A stretch of 64,000 bases of DNA, from positions 1 to 64,000 of the forward strand of contig CAJOHZ010000019.1 in assembly GCA_905234695.1 (NCBI GenBank), written 5' to 3'. The number at the start of each line of letters is the position of its first letter. Positions within the stretch are counted from its first letter, which is position 1. This DNA comes from an uncultured Bacteroidales bacterium (GTDB lineage Bacteria; Bacteroidota; Bacteroidia; Bacteroidales; P3). A program made the translations under genes and the position numbers. Under the pieces are notes generated by a model, which was not told where the DNA came from, searched no databases, and saw nothing but the letters and a program-made list of their open reading frames with translations. This document shows positions 692 to 64,000 of the stretch, in pieces.

Positions 692-3600
692 GGTCGTCGA
701 CGGGGCGGTGAGGGTCGTGACGGTCACCAAGGCGCTCCAGTTCTCACTGTGCCAGTTGGTGCCGCAGACGGCGCGGACATAGAAGTCATACTGCGTCTCG
801 TCCATCAGGCCGGAAACCGTGAGGCTGTTCGTCGCGGCGGGCAGCGAAGTGCCGTTGCCCTGCGTGAAGCCGTGCATGCCGTATTCCACTTCGTAGCCCT
901 GGGCAAGCGTCGCGGCCGGCCAGTTGAGGGTCACACTGTTGAAGGTGACATTGCTGGTCGTCACACCCGTGACGGTCGGGCAGATCTGCGTGGCGAACTG
1001 GATGCTGTCGCTCCAGTCGCCCGGGATGTTCTGCGCGTTGCCGCAGAGGGCGCGGATGGCGGCGTAGTAGGTCACGCCGGCGTGCAGGCCACCGACAGTG
1101 GCCGGGTTGGTCGTCACCGTGTAGGTGGTGTCGGTCGTGGTGCTGAAGACGCGGATGTCCCAAGCCGTCTCGTTGCCGCGGGCCGTCCAGCCGAAGGTGG
1201 CGGTGGTGTTGGTGGTACTCAAGGCAGTCAGGCTGTCGGGAGCCAGGCAAGGCAGGCTGTCGGTAGTGAAGAAACCTTCCACCCAGTTGGAGTAACCCAG
1301 ACTGTCGATGGTGCAGTCTTGACGCACGCGGAACATATATACCGTGGCGGGCTGCAGGCCGGTGAAGGTCTTGCTGGTGGTGGTCACCGTCTCGGCGGTG
1401 GGCCAAGTGGGCGTGTCGGTCGTCTTGCAAGCCACCTCGTAGGCGGTACCGTTGCCGCTCCAAGTGATGGTGTGCGACTGGTAGTCTCCTGTGCTGGAGG
1501 TGAGATTCGGCTGACGGCAGCCAGTAGCGCCACAGGAGTACAGACGAATGTTACCCAGTGTGCTGGTGGTAGTACCTCCAGTAACAGTGTTGATGTCATA
1601 GGCATTGTCATCGTTGTAAACGTAGCACATCTTGTTGCCACTTGCGGAGTGAGCCTCGAAGTTGGCCGTGCAACTATAAGTGCCCATCAGACGGTTGATG
1701 GCGACAAGCACGTTGCTATGGCCGTCCCAAGTGAAGTTGGTGTCGAAAGACTTAATCTGCCAATTGTCGTCGGTGAAGTTCCAGTTGCCGTTATTCACCA
1801 CCTGGACAAACTGGTGAGTTGTCGAGTCGGGATGGATAAAGCCTGAGAGCGTGCTCTCACTGACGTTGGCCAGATAGACGTTGATTTGGTTGAAGTAACT
1901 ACCGTAGTCGGCGGCCGTGCCAGACACTGGCTTGAAGCTCATGGCCGAGATGTCACCAGCGATGGCAGCCATGTCGGCGGAGTCGATAATCATCTGGACA
2001 TAGCTGTAGTTGTAGCAGCTATAGCCCGGGAAGTAACTTGTTGTGGAGCTTGAGCTTGTGAAATTGCTGGCAATGGTAGCATTGTCGCACATGGAGGTCA
2101 TCAGGTCAACCGGACTGCTCCAACGGCCAGTATCGCTGCCCGAGCAAATCGGGCGAACCGAGACACTGTAGGAAGTCAACGTGTCGAGGCCCGTGAGGGA
2201 AACTGGATGCGAGGCGACATTGATGATGGTGTCGTTGCTCGTACCTGCAAGACCATAGCGGAGCTGCCAACTGACTGTACCGGAATCAACATCGGTCCAA
2301 TCGACATCGAGATAGGTCGTACCAGCGGTGACAGCGGTGATGTTGACAGGAGCGGCGCAGGAGTTGCGGAACACTTCGATATTGTCAACAGCAGCCGGAG
2401 GATTGGAACCGCTGCTGCCATCGTTGCCCCAGTAGAACACCAAGTGGTAGGTACCGGAGGTGGCAATGGAGACATCGGTACTGAGGCTCTGCCATGAGGA
2501 ATTGCCACGCAGAGGTGCGCTGCCGTCAAGCGAAATCCAACCCGCGGGCGTCACGTTCCAGAAGTTGTAGGAGGAGGTGGTACCGTCGGGGCAGTAGCCA
2601 GCCTCGATGTTGGCATCACCCGGAGCCAGGAAGGCTCTCAGGTAGTCGTAAGCATAAGTAGAGCCACCTTCACCGTTGGCCATCCAGTTGAAGCTGATGT
2701 TGTAGCTACCGGCGGGCATGTTGAAGCTACGGTAGGCATAGGTGTGGCTGGTGTTACTGGTATTATAGCTGTTGGATGTGCCGTTGTCGTTGGAGATGTA
2801 CATACCCATGTTGTCGGCGGTGCCGTAATGGGCGGCGGTGCCGACGTACCACTTGTTAGCCTGGGTGCCGTTGACAGGCTCCCAAGCGTTGGCAATGGTC
2901 GAGTCAGAGAAGTCGCAGATGTAGGGATAGGTCATCACCGGAGCGGCACGCATGGTGGTGAAGGTGAAGACAGTGGTGTCGCTCACCTCGGTGGCGCTGC
3001 AGAGGCTCACCAGACGCACGTCGTACTGCGTCAACGGCGTGAGGCCGGTAAGGCTGAGGCTACGTGTGGTCACCGTCGAGGCTGTGCCGGTACCCGGTAC
3101 AAAGCCGTGAGGACCGTACTCAACGCTGTAGCTCGCGGCCTGGCTGGTGCGCCAAGTGATGTCGGCACTGACGTTGGTCAGCACGGCACACTGCACACGC
3201 TGCGGGGCGATACAGCTGGGGATGCGGTCGATGACGAGGTTGTCAATATAGTGGCTGACGCCCGTGCCGCTGTTGCCATAGGCCTTGAGGGCGATACGGG
3301 TGTCGGTGCCGGTGTAATCGGTCAAGTAAGAGCTGACCGTGGAAGCATTGACTCCGTGCTCGAAGAGGATGGTGTCAACCGGCACGAAACTGGTGGCATA
3401 GCCGCTGGTTGCACTGGCATCGATGGTACCTACCACAAGGCCGTAGCCATTGACATTATAGTCATGGAAGGTGACCATGAGGGAATCCAGCGGGACACCC
3501 ATCTCAGGCAGGACAACGATGCCGCTGCCCATCAGCTGCAGGGCATAGCTCTGCGAGGGGGCCTGGCTGTTGTTGGTGTTATAATAGATGTAGGCACCCG

Positions 3601-6600
3601 TGGCCTCCGTGTTCCAGCAGGTGGGCAGGATGTTGGTGGCGGTAGAGCCGGCACTCACATAGCCCTCGAAGTTCATCGTGTAGGGCAATGCCGTGATGGC
3701 ACCGCACGCGGTGGAGAAGTTGATCACCTGCGAGGCGATGGCGGTGTCGGTACCGCAGACGGTGTAGACATAGGCATCATACGAGGAACTGTGGTTCAGA
3801 CCCGTGAGGGTATACGGTGCCATGGCGGTGTTGACCCTCGTGCCGGTACCGGCGGTGAAACCGTGGAGGCCGTACTCAACAACATAGCCGGTACTGGCGG
3901 TGTTGTTGTCCACCCAGTCAATATCGGCACTGGAGGCAGTCACGTTGGTAGCAGTGAGACCCGTGACAGGCTGGCAGTTCGGGATATATTCCACCACGAT
4001 GTTGTCGAGGAACGAGTAGTTGTCGTTGAAGGCATCCCAGAAGGCAATGTGGGCTGCCGAGTCAGACTCCGCGAGGTTGTCGAAACGGTAGGTGTAGTTG
4101 ATATAGGAAGTTGTGGAGTCAATTTGGCTGCGGATGATGGTGTCGAGCACGCGCATGGTGCTGATGGGGGCATTGGGGTCGTCCATCAAGCCCATAAGGA
4201 AGCGCACATTGTTGCCACCCTGCACAAAGTAGAAGCGAATCTGCAGCTGGTTGAGCGGAGCGTCCATGCGAGGCATAATGGCGTAGGCACCGTTCCAGAA
4301 GAGACAAAGTTTGTTGGGGTCGCCCGTCAGGTTGACCACCGTGGGATTGGGATAGCTGCTGCCGAGGTTGGTGGAGCCAATGGTCCAGCAGGTACGGTTG
4401 TAGACGCCGCTGTGGTTCTCGAAGTCCTCGGTATAGGGCAGGGCGGCAGGAGCACAGAGGGTGCTGAAGCTGACGGTGCCCGAAAGGATCTGGCTGTTGC
4501 AGTCGGTGCTCACGCGGGCCACATAATCCAATGCCGGGGCAAGACCCTGGAAGGTGTAGGTGCCGGTGGTGTTGGTCGAGTCGACGATGGTCCAGGCGGT
4601 GTCAGTGGCAAGACGGTAAGCCACCGTGTAGACCTGACCTGCCTCGGGCTCCCATGCGATGGTGGCTTGGTTGGCCTGCACATCAGTCACAGTAGGTGTC
4701 GGCGTGCCGCAGTCGGGGATGACGCAAGTGAGGTTAGTCAGCTTGATCTGGTTGACATAGTTGACTGCTCCACTGTTGCTGGCGCTGGGGCTGGCGGGGG
4801 TGATGTCCGTATCATCCTGGTAGAAGTAGAGGGCGCGGGCATTCGAGGTGGCCGTAGCCGTCCAACTGATGGTACTGGTATAGGAACCCGTGTTGTCATC
4901 CACAGCCACAACGAGGTTGCTGCCAGCCGTACGGATGAACTGGGTGGTCAGGTGGAACGAGAGCCAACCCGTGCCGCTCAGCGTGCCAGTATAGACCTGC
5001 TGGAGGTTGGCCGCCGGGATATAGTTGCTCGTGCTGCTGAAGGAAGACTGGGTCGTGTTGCCCATGTAGATGACGATATTGCGGCTGCTGCAGGTATACC
5101 CATCCTCGACATGGAATGCGATGTCGGTGATGGTGTCGAGACCGGTGAGCTCGCTATTGAGGTAAATCTGCTGGGTGTAGCTGTATTCATAGTACTGCTG
5201 TGTGGGGAGGTAATTGTGGGTAGCACCGCCCTCGGTGACGAGAGTGGCACAGCCGCTGGTCTGTACGCTGCCGCTGACATTGGTGCTGTTCACCGTGTCG
5301 CACTCGGTGTGGACGCGATAGTCATAGAGCGTGTTGGGAGTCAAAGAACCCACATAGTAGTAGTTGTTGGTGGTGGTCGCCGTGGTCCACGTGGAAGCGG
5401 AGGCGAGTTTGTACTCGACAATGTAACCCGTCACAGGCTCACCCGTGGTGGGAGCATCCCAGCTGAGGGTGAAGGAATGGTAATCGGGCGTAGCATGCAG
5501 GTTACTCACCGGCACGCAGTCCACACTGGTGGTGAAGTCGATGCTGCGGAAGCGGCTGTCGGCATCATAGCAGACACCCTTCACCCAGACATAATAGTGC
5601 GTGTTGCCATGCAGGCCGGTGAAGGTATAGTTGGTGGCACCAATCACACTGGCACTGTCAAATGCCGCAGCGATATTGTCGGTAGTGGCGATATAGACCA
5701 TGTATTCCACATGCTGGGCACTGGCCGTGTCGGTCCAGGCCACAGTGGCAAAGCTGTTGCTGACGGCACTCGTGCGCAAGCCCTCGATGGCGGGGCAGGT
5801 GCTGGCGCGGTCAATCACCAGGTTGTCCATCCAATAGTACCAGGCAGTGGAACCATCGGGACGCCACACGAGGTAAACAGTATCGGCGCAGGAGTCGTTG
5901 CTGAGGTCAAACTCGTAGTGATAGTACGTATAGGTTGATGCAGGGGTAAAGACATGAAGGTCGACCATGCTATCCACCGAGTTGGGGTTGCGGGTGTAAC
6001 CAAAATGCATGGCTCCGGAACTGGAGGTGCTTTCCACCTGCAGGTCGAAGGAGACTACCACTTGGTTCAGCGGCACACTCAGTCTCGGCGTAATGGCCGA
6101 GGCCAAACCGCCGAACTGAATGCAGTTGCCGTAGCTGGTGGTGATGTAGGGGTAGTTGTTGCTGTTGAGGATACGGGTCCAGCAGGCAGGGAACGAGTTG
6201 GCCGCATAGCTGTTGAAGTCCTCACTGAAGGGCAGCATCATGGCACCGCAAGCGGTGCGGACTGCCAAACTAGTGGCAATACTGGTGTCGCCATTGTCGC
6301 AAAGAGCCCACACTAAGATGTTGTAGGGAGTGTTGGCAAAGAGGTTGTCGAAGGTATAGGTAGTGTCGTACACCTCGGTAGTGTCAACTCCGTTGCTGAC
6401 AATCCAGATCGTCTCACTGCCGCCCGGTTGCCACACGACGACAATGCTGTCACTCGTGACATAGGAGGCCTCGAGACCCTGCACACCAGGGCATGTATTG
6501 TGTACGAGAGAGACATTGTCGATGGCCGCCGGGGGAGTGGAACCGCTGCTGCCGTCGTTGGCCCACATGAACACCAGTTGATAGGCACCCACTTGGTTGA

Positions 6601-55744: not shown

Positions 55745-56779
55745 ATGGCTCCGAATAATATAACACAAATACCTGAAAGGTTTCTGAACGACATACGTTC
55801 CATCATTGAACATGGACGGCAAACAGCATACGCTGCAGCAGGTCAGGCGGCCATAATGACATACTGGAATGTAGGACAACGCATCGTGGAGGAGGAGCAG
55901 AACGGGAAGTCCAGAGCCGAATACGGAAAGCAAATCATACCCTTGTTGGCAAATCAGCTGACAAGGGACTATGGGACGGGATATGGCAGGCGCAACCTGG
56001 CATACTATCGTCAATTCTATCTCACATTCCCACAAAAGGAGATTTTGCACGACTTCGTGCAAAATCTTACATGGACACATATACGCCGCATCCTTTCGGT
56101 GTCAAATCCGGACGCACAACTATGGTATCTGAAAGCCGCTTCTGGCAATATGTGGAGTACCACGGAACTTGACCGCAACATCGCCACACAGTACTATGAA
56201 CGCCGCCTTGCGGCCCAATTGCCGGCAAATGTCGTCGACTTGCAGCAGAATACAGGGAAAGACCCACTGGATTATATCAAGAATCCTGTTGTGGCGGAAT
56301 TTATGGGCTTTCGTCGAGACAGCACATTCTCCGAGTCGGATTTGGAACAAGCCCTCATAGACAACCTTGAGCGGTTCATCCTGGAACTTGGACGTGGCTT
56401 TGCCTTCGTGGAACGGCAGCAGCATATTGTGACTGATACAGCCGACTTCTTTATTGATTTGGTTTTCTATAATTTCAAGATGAAACGTTTCGTGATTTTT
56501 GAACTGAAAACGCATAGGCTGACGCATCAAGATATAGGACAACTTGATATGTATGTTCGTATGTATGATGATTTGGTGCGGGGAGAAGACGACAAACCCA
56601 CTATTGGAGTGTTGCTCTGCACAGACACAGACAATACCATTGCACGCTACTCTGTGCTGCATGAAAGCGAGCAACTCTTTGCAGCCAAATACATGACTTA
56701 TATGCCAACCGAGGAAGAATTGCGCCGCGAGATTGAGCAGCAGAAACAATTTTTCCTGCAACAACACAATAGAGAATAA
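55745..56779 (+). CDS. YhcG/DUF1016-family PD-(D/E)xK nuclease
   Basis: N-terminal 'AYAAAGQAAIMTYWNVGQRIVEEEQNGKSRAEYGKQIIPLLANQLTRDYGTGYGRRNLAYYRQFY'; C-terminal 'DFFIDLVFYNFKMKRFVIFELKT'. Confidence 0.9.
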   Translation: MAPNNITQIPERFLNDIRSIIEHGRQTAYAAAGQAAIMTYWNVGQRIVEEEQNGKSRAEYGKQIIPLLANQLTRDYGTGYGRRNLAYYRQFYLTFPQKEILHDFVQNLTWTHIRRILSVSNPDAQLWYLKAASGNMWSTTELDRNIATQYYERRLAAQLPANVVDLQQNTGKDPLDYIKNPVVAEFMGFRRDSTFSESDLEQALIDNLERFILELGRGFAFVERQQHIVTDTADFFIDLVFYNFKMKRFVIFELKTHRLTHQDIGQLDMYVRMYDDLVRGEDDKPTIGVLLCTDTDNTIARYSVLHESEQLFAAKYMTYMPTEEELRREIEQQKQFFLQQHNRE

Positions 56780-56967: not shown

Positions 56968-57090
56968 ATGCCTGAACAAAGAGATAATAATAGGTTTAAA
57001 GCCATAGATTTTTTCTGCGGAGGAGGTGGTATGACACGGACGAGTATTTTTGTAAATACAAAAATGTCATTGGATATTAAACGAAAGTAA
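56968..57090 (+). pseudogene. N-terminal stub of a cytosine-5 DNA methyltransferase (motif I only)
   Basis: MPEQRDNNRFKAIDFFCGGGGMTRTSIFVNTKMSLDIKRK*: AIDFFCGGGGMT matches 5mC MTase motif I, then loses homology. Confidence 0.6.
57046..57065. promoter_or_regulatory. Inverted repeat overlapping a TATTTTTG -7 box, upstream of the GHKL gene
   Basis: ATTTTTGTA-AA-TACAAAAAT (9-bp arms); TATTTTTG at 57045-57052 fits TAnnTTTG; GHKL ATG at 57092. Confidence 0.5.
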
Positions 57091-57091
57091 T

Positions 57092-59824
57092 ATGGATAAC
57101 ATGACAAACACCTTAGTGTTGACTCAATACCGAGAAGGTGATGAATATAATGATTTCATCGGGAAATATTATCATTTCCCCGTAAATCAGGCTAAGTCTT
57201 ATCTTTCAATGTTTGATACGCTGCCAATAGAATTCGTGTATTATGAACCAATAAAATCAGGAAAAGGTGAGTTCTACGGATATGGCAGAATCACCACAAA
57301 ACCATTTAAAGATAAGAACAATGATGGGTATTATTTTGTAGAGATAGCCGACTACAAACCATTCAAGGAGCCTGTATCCTATAAAAATGCCCAAGGCGAA
57401 GTTATAGAAAAGATCCACAATCCAAACACTTATAATTCCAATAATGCAGTTAGACGCATTTCCAAATCATTTCTGGATGATGTTTGTTTAGACGGACATA
57501 TCCTTTTGAATTTTGAGTCAGATGCCCATTTGGTAAATATTTTAGGAGAGCAACTTATCGGCTCTGAAAAAGTTGGAATACTAGAACTAGTAAAAAATGC
57601 CATAGATGCATCTGCCAGTTACTGCAAAATCAGATTTGAGAAACTGCCCAATCTTCCTGCTGTAGACCCTTCACTTAACCAATTCAACAATCTCCCAGGG
57701 CCTGTAATTGTTATAGAAGACAATGGCGTTGGCATGAGTAGAGATGTCATTGAAAGAGGGTGGCTTCGCCCTGCCTCAACTATAAAAACAGAAATAAAAA
57801 ATAAACTTCGAGAAGAGAGAGAAAATGCCGAGAAGTCAGGTAATATTAGTGCTTATTTGTCTATAGTTGGCCAGTTAAAGAAAGAGCATGGCGGTAGAAT
57901 TCCTTTGGGGGAAAAGGGAGTTGGACGTTTTGCCACAAATAGATTGGGTACAAATTTAATTATCAGAACAAAAATCGCAGGTTCCCAAGAAGAACTTGTC
58001 CTGAGAATAAACTGGGACGACTTTGAGTTTACTGATGGCAGAAGCAAAAATTTGAGTTCAATAGGTGTTGAACTGACCAAGGAACCTCTTTCTCGCGATT
58101 ATGGGGAAAATGATTCTGGAACGCAGATTATTATTTTTGGAGGAAGAAAGGACTTTGAATTTGACGAAGAAAAAATCAAAGACATTAACAAGTCAATTAT
58201 GAGATTGAATTCGCCAAATCCAAGCCCCAAAATCTCCAACCCCAGTTTTCGCGCCTTCATAGAATGTCCTCAGATTGAGGATTTAGAGACGAAAGAGATT
58301 TATGAAGAATTCGTCCCTAACTTCAGTTTGGAAGCGTTGGTTGATGGGAATGGAATAGTTAGTGACTATTCGTTAAAATTTGTCTCACCACCTTCGGTTC
58401 CTCTACCAGATGAAGAATGGGAGGAAAAAGATTATGATTTACGAACTTCTAATTATACTTATTGGAAAGATCAACAAAATGGGCTTTTAAGAAAACCCAC
58501 CTGTGGCTCTTTTTACATTCATCTTGATGCGTGGTATAGAGGCAAGCCTTGGCTGGATGGCCCTGACCAGAAGGACATGTTGGAATACCTCTCTGATTAT
58601 GGAGGAATATCTATATATAGGGACAATGTTATCATCTTCCCTGCTGAATCTGGAACAAAAAACGATTGGTTGGGATTGTCGCAACGTAATATCAAACAAG
58701 GTTTCAGAATATCCTATTACAATATGATTGGTAATATTGAATTGGATCAATCCGAAAACCTAGATTTGATTGATAAAACAAATCGTGAAGGCTTAATTGA
58801 AAACCAAGCATATAAAGATTTATCCAAGTTGGTGGAGACCGTTGTACAGAACATCTTGGAGGTTAAGTATATAAGCAAACGTGACGAATATACAAACTTG
58901 ACTAAAGGAATCACCAGAGACCCAAAGAAACTTGGAGAAGCCACAAAAGCCAGTTCCGAAATCATAGATGGAATATACGAGCACTATTCCATTGAAGAAG
59001 ACCCGTGGAAAATTTTACGAAAACTAGGCAATTCGGTTCAAGAACGTAGGGCTGGACTTGTAAACTTATCAGAATCCATAAAGAATTTAAAAAAGAGTGT
59101 TGAGATTATAGAGGGAGTCCAGGATAAATTAACAGAGCAAGCGGGCTTTGGATTGGCTGCCGCAGTCTCTATTCATGAGCTAAACAAAATCGCCTCTAAT
59201 TTCTACATAGGCATTACGGAATTAATTAATGCAGGGAAAAAATATCAAGATTTCCAATTAGAAGATTTGCAATCAACATCAGATAGCCTCCGGTCAGAAC
59301 TGAAGCGTCTTGGTCCACTGAGAACAATTCGAAACGAAAGGGCCCGTGAAGTCAAACTGTCTCAGGCAATCAATTATGCTTTTGAGACATTTAAAAATAA
59401 ACTGGGAAAAAACAATATAAAGACTGATATTTCGCTTGACAACGACATAGTCGTTTATGCAAGATATTCGACATTATGCCAAGTTTTGGTGAATTTATTT
59501 GACAACAGCGTTTATTGGTTATCATTTGTGCCAGAAGATAGACGTTGCATATACATTAAGGTTGAAAGCGAAAAACGCATTGTTGTTTTTGGAGATTCTG
59601 GCAAGGGCATAGATGATGCGATAAGGCCTTATTTATTTGAAGCAGGATACAGTATGAAAATCCCGCCGAGTGGACTGGGACTTTATATTTGCAAGTCGTA
59701 TATGAGTGCAATGAAAGGTACTATATATGAAACACCTTCGCCAAATCGCCTTGATTATATTCAAGGGGCTCAATTTACTATTGATTTCAACCATGTTCCT
59801 GCAAGAAAGGAGGATGCAAAATGA
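57092..59824 (+). CDS. Double-GHKL ATPase: N-terminal PUA/EVE-like domain, Hsp90/MORC-type ATPase, C-terminal histidine-kinase-like HATPase with H-box-like motif
   Basis: First GHKL: ELVKNAIDA / VIEDNGVGM / GEKGVGRFATNRLG. Second: SIHELNKIASNF (H-box-like), NLFDNSVYW, VVFGDSGKGIDD, SGLGLYICKSYM. N-terminus 'YREGDEYNDFIGKYYHFPVNQAKSYLSMFDTLPIEFVYYEPIKSGKGEFYGYGRI' resembles PUA-like domains of restriction-associated HNH proteins. Confidence 0.8.
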   Translation: MDNMTNTLVLTQYREGDEYNDFIGKYYHFPVNQAKSYLSMFDTLPIEFVYYEPIKSGKGEFYGYGRITTKPFKDKNNDGYYFVEIADYKPFKEPVSYKNAQGEVIEKIHNPNTYNSNNAVRRISKSFLDDVCLDGHILLNFESDAHLVNILGEQLIGSEKVGILELVKNAIDASASYCKIRFEKLPNLPAVDPSLNQFNNLPGPVIVIEDNGVGMSRDVIERGWLRPASTIKTEIKNKLREERENAEKSGNISAYLSIVGQLKKEHGGRIPLGEKGVGRFATNRLGTNLIIRTKIAGSQEELVLRINWDDFEFTDGRSKNLSSIGVELTKEPLSRDYGENDSGTQIIIFGGRKDFEFDEEKIKDINKSIMRLNSPNPSPKISNPSFRAFIECPQIEDLETKEIYEEFVPNFSLEALVDGNGIVSDYSLKFVSPPSVPLPDEEWEEKDYDLRTSNYTYWKDQQNGLLRKPTCGSFYIHLDAWYRGKPWLDGPDQKDMLEYLSDYGGISIYRDNVIIFPAESGTKNDWLGLSQRNIKQGFRISYYNMIGNIELDQSENLDLIDKTNREGLIENQAYKDLSKLVETVVQNILEVKYISKRDEYTNLTKGITRDPKKLGEATKASSEIIDGIYEHYSIEEDPWKILRKLGNSVQERRAGLVNLSESIKNLKKSVEIIEGVQDKLTEQAGFGLAAAVSIHELNKIASNFYIGITELINAGKKYQDFQLEDLQSTSDSLRSELKRLGPLRTIRNERAREVKLSQAINYAFETFKNKLGKNNIKTDISLDNDIVVYARYSTLCQVLVNLFDNSVYWLSFVPEDRRCIYIKVESEKRIVVFGDSGKGIDDAIRPYLFEAGYSMKIPPSGLGLYICKSYMSAMKGTIYETPSPNRLDYIQGAQFTIDFNHVPARKEDAK

Positions 59825-61125
59825 AACACACAGTATGCTTTATAGATGATACAATACCAGTTTCTCAATATGGTGAGTATTTTAATGATACTGACATAAT
59901 AAGTAGCTCTGTTATCAAGTACCTGTTAAAAAAGGAAAATACAAAATGGAGAGATGACGTGGTAAAAAACATGTGTAAAAAACTGGTGGATGAACCTGAA
60001 AAATGGTCGGTGAGTGCATTCACATCTCCAGATTTCTACGACAATTACATAAAAGAGACAGTATATGCCCCAGAAATAGTCATATATGACTGGGATTATA
60101 ACTATGGACCAGGGTCTAACGAATCAGAGGAGCATTTGTTGGAGATTCTGAAAACATCGTACACAATGATTTTTGTCTTTTCTGAAAATGAACACATTGA
60201 TGATATTAATCAGATTATCCAAAATGATGAGTTTAAAAAATATGGAGACAGGCTGTGTGTTGTTGATAAAACCCAAGACAACAGCATTGAATATATTTTT
60301 TCTCAAATAGAACAGAAAGAACAAAACAATTTTTCGTTTGCATATGGTTTTGAAATTATACAGAAATCAAACAAAGCAATTAATAAGGTTTTATCCGAAC
60401 TATCAGAATTATCCATCTCAGATTTCATGGCTTTTATAGGTGTCCCTAATGGAAACACCTATAACACTTCTACCGAAGACTTTCTTGATGCCATTACTCC
60501 TAAATATAAGAGTCTATTGCAATCTGAGTCAAAAAATAGGGAGGTGGCAGTAAGCAAGTCGGACAATGTTGATTTACTGCACTTAAGAAAAATATGGGCC
60601 TATCGAATGTATGATAACCTCAATACTCAAAAGGTAAGGATGGGTGATGTGGTTAGGAATTCAGAAAATGATTTTTTTTTGGTTGTTTCCTCAGACTGTC
60701 ATTTAAACAAATTTCCAAAATCAAACTTTGGTTTCCTGACAATGGTTCCGATGTATCCGTGTGGCACAATAGAATCAATAAAAATCCTGAAAAAGAATGG
60801 GGTCTCTACCAAACTCACATCGTTGACAAGCAATAATAAATCTTCAATGACCATCCTTCCATGTATTCCTATCGACGGGAAACTAATTGATTTTATGATT
60901 GTCCCAAAGGGAATTGTGTCGGTTGCTCTAAAAGAGGAGAGTGGATCAAAAAATTTATTATATGATAATCTTGTTGGGTATACAAAAATCACATCAATTT
61001 CAGATCCGTTCAAGTCTCCATTAGTACAATACATCTTTGATAATATTACGGGATATGGGTGTCCAAATTTCCCTAATGAAATGATAGATAATATATACAA
61101 TAAGATAAAGCAGATGCTATCATGA
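59821..61125 (+). CDS. Atypical receiver-like protein with uncharacterised C-terminal domain (434 aa)
   Basis: Receiver-like strands TVCFIDDT, EIVIYDWDY, MIFVFSEN, LCVVDKT; ATGA overlaps with both neighbours. Confidence 0.55.
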   Translation: MKHTVCFIDDTIPVSQYGEYFNDTDIISSSVIKYLLKKENTKWRDDVVKNMCKKLVDEPEKWSVSAFTSPDFYDNYIKETVYAPEIVIYDWDYNYGPGSNESEEHLLEILKTSYTMIFVFSENEHIDDINQIIQNDEFKKYGDRLCVVDKTQDNSIEYIFSQIEQKEQNNFSFAYGFEIIQKSNKAINKVLSELSELSISDFMAFIGVPNGNTYNTSTEDFLDAITPKYKSLLQSESKNREVAVSKSDNVDLLHLRKIWAYRMYDNLNTQKVRMGDVVRNSENDFFLVVSSDCHLNKFPKSNFGFLTMVPMYPCGTIESIKILKKNGVSTKLTSLTSNNKSSMTILPCIPIDGKLIDFMIVPKGIVSVALKEESGSKNLLYDNLVGYTKITSISDPFKSPLVQYIFDNITGYGCPNFPNEMIDNIYNKIKQMLS

Positions 61126-62147
61126 AATATATATCTATAGATTTATTCTCTGGAGCTGGCGGCATGTCAGAAGGTCTCAAAATGGCAAAATTTAGAACAA
61201 AATATGCTTTTGAGATTGACCCTATTGCTGCCATGACCTACAGTTTGAATCATAGTAAAACAAAAGTTTTTACTCAGGATATCCGAACGGTTGATACTGA
61301 CGATATAAAAAAGGGCCTTCGTGGTAAAACCATTCATCTTTTGGCAGGTTGTCCCCCATGTCAAGGGTTCAGTTCCATCAGAAGACTTAATAGGAACAAG
61401 CCCGCAGAAGACGAAAGAAACTTTCTGATTAACGAATATGTAAGATTTGTTAACGATTTGCGCCCCTATACAATCATGCTTGAGAATGTTCCTGGATTAC
61501 AAATGTCCGACGACTTCAACAGGGCGGTAGATTATTTATGTGGGATAGGCTATAATATAGACTACAGGGTTTTAAATGTAAAAGACTATGGGGTACCTCA
61601 AAACAGAAAGAGATTAGTGTTAGTTGGTTCACGCATAGGTAACATCCATGTAGCCGAAGCAACAAATGAAAAGAACACAGTTCGTTCCACTATAGCAAAC
61701 ATGCCCTATCCCGAGTGCTGTGAAGATGAAGTACATAAAATATATCCACATCATATTCAAAGAATCCAGCAATTGATAAACCAAATTCCTCACGATGGAG
61801 GTAGCCTAAGGGATTTAGGGGAAGAATGGCAACTAGAATGTCATAAATCGGAAAATGTAGGATTTAATGATGTATATGGGAGATTACGATGGGATTCATA
61901 TTCTACAACCATAACAGGGGGATGTCTCAATCCCTCCAAAGGAAGGTTCCTACATCCTGAGCAAGACAGATGTATTTCTGCTAGAGAAGCTTCAATGCTT
62001 CAAACATTCCCTGTCGATTATATTTTTCCAGCAAATGTGGCAAAAACGAAAATTGCATTGATGATTGGCAATGCACTTCCTCCTAGATTCTGTTTTGTAC
62101 AAGCTTCGAATATAAAGAACCATTTGGACACCCTTCTTGACAACTGA
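61122..62147 (+). CDS. Cytosine-5 DNA methyltransferase
   Basis: Motifs I (IDLFSGAGGMSEG), IV (GCPPCQGFSS), VI (MLENVPG), VIII (QNRKRLVLVG), IX (REASMLQTFP), X (GNALPP). Confidence 0.95.
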   Translation: MKYISIDLFSGAGGMSEGLKMAKFRTKYAFEIDPIAAMTYSLNHSKTKVFTQDIRTVDTDDIKKGLRGKTIHLLAGCPPCQGFSSIRRLNRNKPAEDERNFLINEYVRFVNDLRPYTIMLENVPGLQMSDDFNRAVDYLCGIGYNIDYRVLNVKDYGVPQNRKRLVLVGSRIGNIHVAEATNEKNTVRSTIANMPYPECCEDEVHKIYPHHIQRIQQLINQIPHDGGSLRDLGEEWQLECHKSENVGFNDVYGRLRWDSYSTTITGGCLNPSKGRFLHPEQDRCISAREASMLQTFPVDYIFPANVAKTKIALMIGNALPPRFCFVQASNIKNHLDTLLDN

Positions 62148-62151
62148 ACCA

Positions 62152-62556
62152 ATGCCAAACTCAAAAATTACATTTATAGATTTGTTCACTGGTATTGGTG
62201 GTTCTCATCAAGCCATGACATCACTAGGTGGAAGATGTGTGTTTAAAAGTGATATTGATGAGGATTGCTTTAAAACATATGAAATTAATTATGGTATAAA
62301 GCCATCTGGTGATATAACAAAAATTGACGCAACGGATATTTCTGCACATGACGTACCGTGCGCAGGGCTTCTGTGTCAAACATTCTCTACGGGTGGGGAA
62401 AAATCGGTTTTGAGGATGAAACAAAAGGGAGATTTTTTTGATGCTAATAGAATCATATAATTCCATAAACCGGAATATGCCTTATTAGAAAACGATCGGA
62501 ATGTTTTGCAGATTGCAAAGAACGAAGGATGGAAATATGAAATAATAAGATAAAGA
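62152..62556 (+). pseudogene. Decayed cytosine-5 DNA methyltransferase (frameshifted, truncated)
   Basis: MPNSKITFIDLFTGIGGSHQAM...DVPCAGLLCQTFS; then the alternative frame reads GKIGFEDETKGRFF, then DANRII*, then HKPEYALLENDRNVLQIAKNEGWKYEIIR*. Confidence 0.75.
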
Positions 62557-62565
62557 CACAATATT

Positions 62566-63282
62566 ATGACCAGCAAAGACAAAAAATCCATTATTGAAAG
62601 CGGGAAAAACTATTTTCGTCAAATAATCATTCCTGCACATTTGAAAGGCTTGGAAAACCTTACATTGAAGGATTTTAACATCAATCCCTTTCTCATCAAT
62701 TATCTGGCCGCTTTTTTGTGTGGAAACACAGAATCAAAATCACTCGCAAAGGCATTGGTGTATCCCCGCGTATTAGGAACTAGTATCAATACAAGTTTTG
62801 GGTCTAATATTCAGTTTTTCATTGCCGGATTAAAAGAGATAACCAGTAGTGGATCTGCTGTCCCTGGTATTGATATTGAGTTCAAAGACGCCATTGACGG
62901 AAGAACAAAATATTGTCAATGTAAGGCTGGCCCTCAAACAATCAACCGTGATGACATTGACACCATATTAGGGCACTTCAAAGATTTCAAAGGAATTGCA
63001 CGACAAAACCGTTTGCGTGTTGCTGATGACGACTTGATTGTTGGTGTTCTTTATGGTGAACGCCAGAATTTATCGGCCAACTACAAAACCATCAATACTA
63101 CTTATCCCGTATACTGCGGTGCCGAGTTTTGGGAGCATTTAACCGGTGATAAGCATTTTTATCATCGCCTAACAAAGGCTTTTGGAGAAGTGGTGGAGGA
63201 AGAACATATTGATGGTAGTTTGTTGATTGAGGCCAAGATTGACGCAATAGCAAAAGAGATTGACGAGAAAGGCGGTATTTGA
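62566..63282 (+). CDS. Type II restriction endonuclease (PmeII-like family, tentative)
   Basis: PRVLGTSINTSFGSNIQFFI...GSAVPGIDIEFKDAIDGRTKYCQCKAGPQTINRDDIDTI: PD-(D/E)xK-like core; stop overlaps the downstream MTase start (TGATG). Confidence 0.65.
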   Translation: MTSKDKKSIIESGKNYFRQIIIPAHLKGLENLTLKDFNINPFLINYLAAFLCGNTESKSLAKALVYPRVLGTSINTSFGSNIQFFIAGLKEITSSGSAVPGIDIEFKDAIDGRTKYCQCKAGPQTINRDDIDTILGHFKDFKGIARQNRLRVADDDLIVGVLYGERQNLSANYKTINTTYPVYCGAEFWEHLTGDKHFYHRLTKAFGEVVEEEHIDGSLLIEAKIDAIAKEIDEKGGI

Positions 63283-64000
63283 TGAGAACTTTTCTATCTA
63301 CATCTAACTTAGCAGACATACTAGGTACGTCTATTGCCACCACACAAAGATGGGGTGAAACGGGGTTGTATCCATATCACTCTCATAATGGGAAACAGGG
63401 ATTCTACATGGAGGATCTGACGGACATCCCCCAGGTAAACCAAATGCTCAACAGCAAGTGGGAAGAAGAAATGCATGTCACACCTCTCCGCGATTTCACC
63501 TCGTTGGAGCTGTTTGCTGGTGCTGGAGGTTTGGCTTTGGGTATGCATTTTGCTGGGTTCCGTCACATTCTCCTGAATGAGATTGATCCTATGGCATCGG
63601 AAACCCTTCGATTGAATCGTCCCGATTGGAATGTGTTGGAAGGTGATGTTCACAAGGTGGATTTTACTCCATTGAGGGGCTTGGTGGATTTTGTTTCAGG
63701 AGGATTCCCCTGTCAGGCTTTTTCATACGCTGGAAAGAAGGGCGGGTTGAACGATACCAGAGGAACATTGTTCTTTGAGCTTGCACGTGCCGTCAAGGAG
63801 ATACAGCCAAAGGTCTTTATGGGAGAGAACGTGAAAGGACTCCTTTCCCATGATGACGGTAGAACGCTTGATGTCATCCGCAACGCTATTGCCGAGTTGG
63901 GTTACACATTGGTTGAACCCCGAGTGCTGAAGGCGGTTATGTATCAAGTTCCCCAAAAGAGGGAAAGACTTATACTAGTAGCCATTCGCAATGACATTGC
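63282..64000 (+). CDS. Cytosine-5 DNA methyltransferase with N-terminal HTH (MerR-like) domain; truncated by window end
   Basis: MRTFLSTSNLADILGTSIATTQRWGETGLYPYHSHNGKQGFYMEDL... then SLELFAGAGGLALGMHFAGF, GGFPCQAFSYAGKKGG, GENVKGLLSHD, VPQKRERLILVAIRN. Absent from the ORF track because it is open at the edge. Confidence 0.88.
   Translation, partial: MRTFLSTSNLADILGTSIATTQRWGETGLYPYHSHNGKQGFYMEDLTDIPQVNQMLNSKWEEEMHVTPLRDFTSLELFAGAGGLALGMHFAGFRHILLNEIDPMASETLRLNRPDWNVLEGDVHKVDFTPLRGLVDFVSGGFPCQAFSYAGKKGGLNDTRGTLFFELARAVKEIQPKVFMGENVKGLLSHDDGRTLDVIRNAIAELGYTLVEPRVLKAVMYQVPQKRERLILVAIRNDI

Follow-up and report, generated by a model that had tools for sequence, protein, structure and literature searches.

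A cassette of three overlapping genes was identified in a 64,000 nt stretch of DNA from an uncultured Bacteroidales bacterium (contig CAJOHZ010000019.1, assembly GCA_905234695.1; the whole stretch is referred to as the window). It specifies a protein with two GHKL ATPase domains and a kinase core (P1), an atypical receiver protein (P2) and a C5-cytosine DNA methyltransferase (P3). Judged by sequence, the trio belongs to the HEF_HK/Response_reg_2 family, of the kind predicted in 2021, and forms a divergent branch within it. The reading we favour, with a probability of roughly 45%, is that of a mobile, two-component-like cassette linked to restriction-modification (R-M), in which a modification-sensing phosphorelay would gate a nuclease or other effector, and the methyltransferase (Dcm) would mark self DNA. 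Much of the initial annotation held, namely the functional unit, the pair of GHKL domains, the receiver, the PUA-type fold and the R-M link, but its description of the trio as undescribed did not, as a 2021 paper had already put forward the combination of a double-HATPase kinase, an atypical receiver and a C5-methylase as a putative two-component system (PMC8011034). The trio had also not been recognised as a named system, and it matches no named defence system in PADLOC 2.0.0, which has no model for P1, and where P2 reached a sub-significant E value of 0.024 to PDC-S70.

All three genes lie on the forward (+) strand. P1 (910 aa; 57092..59824) comprises an EVE/YTH-like (PUA) domain at residues 1-136 (coding part 57092..57500, + strand, assigned from AlphaFold2 and Foldseek), a MORC-type GHKL domain (HATPase_c_3) at 162-327, a DHp-like helix bearing His695-Glu696, and HATPase_c at 794-899. 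P2 (434 aa; 59821..61125) consists of a receiver (approximately residues 1-160), a helical linker and a C-terminal output domain with a conserved Cys, while P3 (341 aa; 61122..62147) is a complete C5-cytosine DNA methyltransferase according to PF00145 and an alignment of 20 orthologues. The genes had been described as joined by 4-bp ATGA overlaps, and these were found exactly where they had been placed, between the P1 stop and P2 start (59821..59824, + strand) and between the P2 stop and P3 start (61122..61125, + strand).

The proposal that the trio forms one functional unit was supported by its co-inheritance across genomes, whereas separate inheritance of the three genes had been named beforehand as grounds for refuting it. 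A scan of genome contigs recovered 20 loci encoding an EVE-MORC-HK protein of the P1 type, from about six phyla, with titles naming Bacteroidota, Chlorobiaceae, Alphaproteobacteria, Planctomycetes, Desulfovibrio and Nitrospirae. In testable loci, meaning those where the contig extends far enough for the neighbours to be checked, the neighbours had been kept: a P2-type gene adjoined P1 in 18 of 18, and a P3 orthologue was present in 19 of 19. Recovery of the same gene set in 18/18 testable loci across about six phyla is more than would be expected by chance. A Vsr gene was clear in 10 of 19 loci and partial or weak in two more, and HNH or HNH_2 genes occurred in four. The distances of P1 correlated with those of P3 (Mantel rho 0.37, 0/2000 permutations) and with those of the P2 receiver (rho 0.52, 0/2000), and no correlation was seen between the P2 receiver and P3 (rho 0.09, 345/2000). 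Diverged versions of the trio occur on plasmids, and three of the four examined were typed as conjugative. Three of these four plasmids carried the HK, a gene in the RR position and Dcm, two of them with Vsr and one with a type II restriction endonuclease as well; on the fourth, the HK and RR-position gene were accompanied by another methyltransferase. Searches of plasmids and phages with P2 and with the N-terminal domain of P1 returned no match, and a search of IMG/VR with P1 gave no confirmed match.

The setting of the trio in this genome supports the connection to restriction-modification and defence islands that had been drawn at the outset. A DUF1016/YhcG nuclease gene lies upstream of P1 at 55745-56779, while P3 is followed by a truncated C5-methyltransferase gene and then by an EcoO109I-family restriction endonuclease with its own C5-methyltransferase. 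The G+C fraction drops from about 0.55-0.60 to 0.36-0.41 at the trio region, which fits horizontal acquisition. Directly abutting the 5' end of P1 is a 5' remnant of a C5-methyltransferase gene ('FKAIDFFCGGGGMTR'; 56968..57091, + strand) that retains motif I only, and an N-terminal C5-methyltransferase fragment of 107 aa (62137..62460, + strand) overlaps the end of P3, so that the trio sits among R-M debris. No Vsr gene is found beside the trio at this locus. One orphan Vsr gene is on another contig (C23), where it adjoins a gene for a DUF4143-like ATPase (a label taken from reading the sequence). It was considered as the missing neighbour of the trio past the contig end and rejected, as the first 300 bases of C23 did not overlap the end of the trio's contig (C19).

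The methyltransferase remnants on both sides, together with the lack of an adjacent Vsr, might be taken to mean that the trio is itself decayed R-M debris, carried along as a passenger after the loss of its partner nuclease. However, its three reading frames are intact and have kept their catalytic residues, and pN/pS values against the nearest relative are well below 1 in each of P1, P2 and P3. This indicates that the trio itself is maintained, and makes decay a very unlikely explanation.

P1 had been credited with two complete GHKL motif sets, and both domains scored above their Pfam cut-offs (HATPase_c_3, 50.8 bits against 25; HATPase_c, 63.6 bits against 26.4), with both models matched by 20/20 homologues. 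The N-box, G1 and G2 residues of the first GHKL domain (E165, N169, D172, D210/G212/G214, G273/G276/G278 and T344) were invariant in all 20, and those of the second were kept in all homologues that reach them, with the exception of position 839, which is G or D. The H-box-like motif noticed earlier proved equally constant, His695 and Glu696 being invariant in 20/20. Residues 687-744, which span this H-box ('SIHELNK'), gave a sub-threshold match to HEF_HK (13.9 bits against a cut-off of 24.1, E 0.078), a model that was matched weakly by 6 of the 20 members of the P1 family (best E 0.032).

The N-terminal domain of P1 is not part of the similarity to its more distant homologues (about 30% identity), where the match begins at residue 133 or later and leaves the first ~135 residues outside. 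AlphaFold2, supplied with 14 homologues, predicted a beta-rich domain with confidence (pLDDT 87.9, pTM 0.83). In a Foldseek comparison to the PDB, the N-terminal domain of McrB, EVE proteins, THYN1 with 5mC DNA, and YTH domains ranked highest, and VcaM4I came 13th. Foldseek probabilities were mostly 0.9-1.0 and TM scores about 0.5-0.6, with E values of 0.005-0.15, all above 0.001; the Pfam EVE model was touched weakly by 2 of the 14 members (best E 0.031). An EVE/YTH barrel fold (PUA superfamily) is supported by these predictions for residues 1-136, and agrees with the original guess of a PUA-like domain. EVE domains of this class flip 5mC or 5hmC, as in VcaM4I (PMC7897488), and we infer that the domain in P1 may likewise read a modified base.

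P2 alone matched no Pfam domain, including Response_reg_2 (PF19192), a model that was weakly matched by 8 of 18 P2 homologues (best E 2.4e-4). Its residues 1-160 were confidently predicted by AlphaFold2 to form a (beta-alpha)5 receiver (pLDDT about 90), and the receivers of PmrA and ArcA were among its Foldseek matches, at probability 1.0 and with E values above 0.001. Across homologues 18-66% identical to P2, Asp9 and Asp10 were present in 17/18, and Asp90, Ser/Thr121 and Lys150 in 18/18. The predicted fold and these conserved positions sustain the assignment of P2 as a receiver, which had been made from its acidic pair, Asp, Ser and Lys. Two forms of P2 occur in this branch, a long form of 434-512 aa, as in the window, and a short form of 281-297 aa that is followed by a separate protein of ~175 aa. 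The output domain of the long form has a conserved Cys in a [ST]xxC[DH]-like motif, and the Cys is also present in diverged relatives, including plasmid-borne ones of Rhizobium, Allorhizobium, Burkholderia and Campylobacter. No recognisable DNA-binding domain was found in the output domain. Identity to the nearest relative is 66% for P2, 88% for P1 and 93% for P3, and the divergence of P2 is concentrated in residues 181-434; positive selection was rejected, since pN is well below pS despite the fast change. In the genomes L003 and L004, residues 205-396 of P2 matched parts of unrelated proteins, and these matches were discarded.

PemK/MazF-like proteins appeared among the Foldseek matches of P2, at rank 12 in one library and at ranks 4 and 7 in another, and we infer that this similarity falls on the C-terminal domain. 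These are weak hints that the output domain may be PemK-like in structure. Catalysis of the MazF type involves catalytic Arg and Thr residues, which were not seen in the alignment of P2 output domains, and a profile comparison with two PemK sequences was no better than shuffled, so that the sequence does not support a true PemK/MazF toxin. A DNA-modification-sensing phosphorelay might also be imagined in which an EVE reader fused to a MORC-type ATPase/kinase turns on a receiver with a PemK-like, Cys-containing output domain, either a toxin or an effector acting on nucleic acids. Abortive defence would then be gated by phosphorylation, and Dcm would label self DNA; this scheme seems improbable to us.

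P3 matched PF00145 over residues 5-332 (193 bits), consistent with the full set of 5mC methyltransferase motifs reported for it. It is not exclusive to the trio: orthologues (56-64%) in other genomes of the phylum have other partners, either a helicase-like protein of ~970-984 aa (so labelled from reading its sequence) or a different GHKL ATPase, with Vsr in several. The varied ATPases suggest that this Dcm, in many cases accompanied by Vsr, forms a constant core to which one or another ATPase module can be joined, in line with the restriction modules built from MORC, Vsr and Dcm in Iyer 2008 (PMC2292703).

In the proposed phosphorelay, P3 would methylate a cytosine motif and so mark self DNA, as its intact methyltransferase domain suggests. 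P1 would dimerise via its MORC-type GHKL domain, and its EVE/YTH domain, if the predicted fold is a guide to its ligand, would read the modification state of DNA. An ATP-driven conformational change would be coupled to the DHp/HATPase kinase core, which would phosphorylate His695 and then Asp90 of P2, both of them invariant residues. Phosphorylated P2 would alter its own C-terminal output domain and/or a partner nuclease, such as those specified by the Vsr or HNH genes of relatives; as there is no operon-linked Vsr here, a nuclease output would have to come from P2 or from a nuclease whose gene lies away from the operon. The likeliest outcome would be restriction of foreign or wrongly modified DNA, or an abortive response to such DNA. 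Phosphorelay logic in defence would be shared with Detocs, a two-component-like phage defence system that is not known to contain MORC or EVE domains or to include a methyltransferase.

This explanation is favoured by the domain content, the invariant catalytic residues and the EVE/YTH fold, a class that includes the McrB sensor, as well as by co-inheritance, the P1-P3 and P1-P2 distance correlations, plasmid carriage, and the alternative ATPase partners of P3. It is weakened by the lack of an adjacent Vsr, the lack of a P2-P3 distance correlation, and Foldseek E values above 0.001, and a regulatory or repair role would fit the gene content nearly as well. As a regulator, P1 and P2 would sense methylation and tune the expression or activity of Dcm and the neighbouring R-M system without killing or cutting, as the authors of the 2021 study speculated (PMC8011034). 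A C5-methyltransferase is always beside the trio, an EVE-type reader could report methylation, and a type II R-M system abuts the trio in this genome, but the P2 output domain, fast-evolving, with a conserved Cys and without a recognisable DNA-binding domain, appears closer to an effector than to a transcription regulator, and we consider this role rather unlikely. A dedicated repair of 5mC deamination, with the MORC-type GHKL domain in the role of MutL for Vsr and with Dcm creating the need, draws on the presence of Dcm and Vsr together in many relatives and on the MutL-Vsr interaction and MutL-MORC kinship discussed in Iyer 2008 (PMC2292703). It is quite unlikely, as it would leave the receiver, kinase core and EVE domain superfluous, Vsr was not found in several loci nor beside the trio here, and the genes are plasmid-borne and lie beside R-M genes.

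The relationship of the trio to known systems is closest for the family of Bellieny-Rabelo et al. 2021 (PMC8011034). Of the 644 regions in that study, 91.6% had a receiver-like protein linked to a GHKL protein; the kinases were mainly built as HATPase_c_3 + HEF_HK + HATPase_c, enrichment was seen near C5-methyltransferases, Vsr and HNH, and the authors proposed a two-component-like system. Common to both are HATPase_c_3, a His-containing DHp-like helix and HATPase_c beside a receiver-like protein, neighbouring C5-methyltransferase, Vsr, HNH and type II R-M genes, and wide transfer. On the other hand, P1 falls below the cut-off of HEF_HK (PF19191), P2 has no Response_reg_2 match, the EVE/YTH-like domain of P1 lies outside the published architectures, and no output domain was described in 2021. 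The R-M-associated ATPases of the MORC and paraMORC type, which belong to the GHKL class (Iyer et al. 2008, PMC2292703), also have an N-terminal GHKL domain with intact motifs and occur with Dcm and Vsr, but P1 adds a C-terminal DHp and HATPase_c as well as EVE, and the trio lacks an SFII helicase. Modification-dependent restriction enzymes of the EVE type (VcaM4I, PMC7897488; McrB) share the N-terminal PUA-superfamily fold of modified-base readers, which in these enzymes sits on a nuclease or GTPase, whereas in P1 it sits on a MORC/histidine-kinase protein. The GHKL-Shedu protein VcSduA (PMC12137116), proteins similar to which were earlier annotated as paraMORC3, has a GHKL ATPase for which control of a defence effector has been proposed, but is a single protein with a Shedu nuclease, and has no kinase core, receiver or methyltransferase. 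A term search of the text of the EVE/DCD census (PMC7641849) did not find GHKL, HATPase or MORC. Within the literature surveyed, which was mainly open-access and may have been followed by later experimental papers, the fusion of an EVE-like domain to a MORC/kinase protein looks new, as do the PemK-like hints on a receiver and the pairing of the Dcm core with other ATPases elsewhere.

If the phosphorelay reading is right, one operon would combine the reading of epigenetic marks with a MORC-type ATPase and two-component signalling, and the family predicted in 2021 would gain a candidate input, the EVE domain, and a candidate output, the Cys-motif domain, having had neither. The role of prokaryotic MORC-type ATPases with DNA methylation was described as 'poorly understood' in the 2021 paper (PMC8011034), and the trio would offer a compact system in which to study how these ATPases deal with DNA methylation.

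Directly upstream of the P1 gene and on the same strand, a 40-aa ORF (56968-57091, +) was recognised as the remnant of a C5-methyltransferase gene, which has a C5-methyltransferase-like start up to motif I (FKAIDFFCGGGGMTR) and then stops short. This truncated remnant suggests that an insertion or deletion occurred at the left edge of the operon. Also 5' of the trio, the segment 55745-56966 (+) contains a gene for a DUF1016/YhcG PDDEXK nuclease (PADLOC PDC-S02) and, after it, a small ORF that is uncharacterised. At the right edge, an N-terminal C5-methyltransferase fragment of 107 aa (62137-62460, +) overlaps the end of P3, and the remainder of that gene is absent ahead of the EcoO109I-like restriction gene. 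The EcoO109I-family type II restriction endonuclease and its paired C5-methyltransferase begin at 62566 (+) and run beyond the window, which ends at 64000; this methyltransferase is 581 aa long, with about 70 aa preceding the methylase domain.

In the nearest relative (locus L040, 13052-18358; P1 88% identical), a second C5-methyltransferase gene and two McrB/McrC-like genes come after the trio; the McrB-like gene specifies an AAA protein and the McrC-like gene a DUF2357 and PDDEXK_7 protein. A few genes away from the operon of a Kordiimonas contig (L042) is a fusion of a GHKL ATPase with a Ymh (PF09509) domain (3571-5247, -), which corresponds to the paraMORC-HEPN type noted earlier (PMC3710099). 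The genome of the window itself carries an orphan Vsr endonuclease on another contig (L061, 2091-2654), with a short insertion relative to the operon-linked Vsr proteins, and the 8 kb of sequence examined there contained no methyltransferase.

Eight loci with the short receiver encode a protein of about 175 aa between the receiver and methyltransferase genes (for example L024, 5212-5754; L025, 6092-6619; and L043, 6060-6581). Two of these proteins were scanned and gave no Pfam match; possibly they represent a split-off output module of the receiver. In three further loci (L073, L074 and L075) the P3 orthologue is directly adjoined by a conserved helicase-like protein of 984 aa, with neither Vsr nor kinase next to the pair, and the two apparently constitute a distinct two-gene module.
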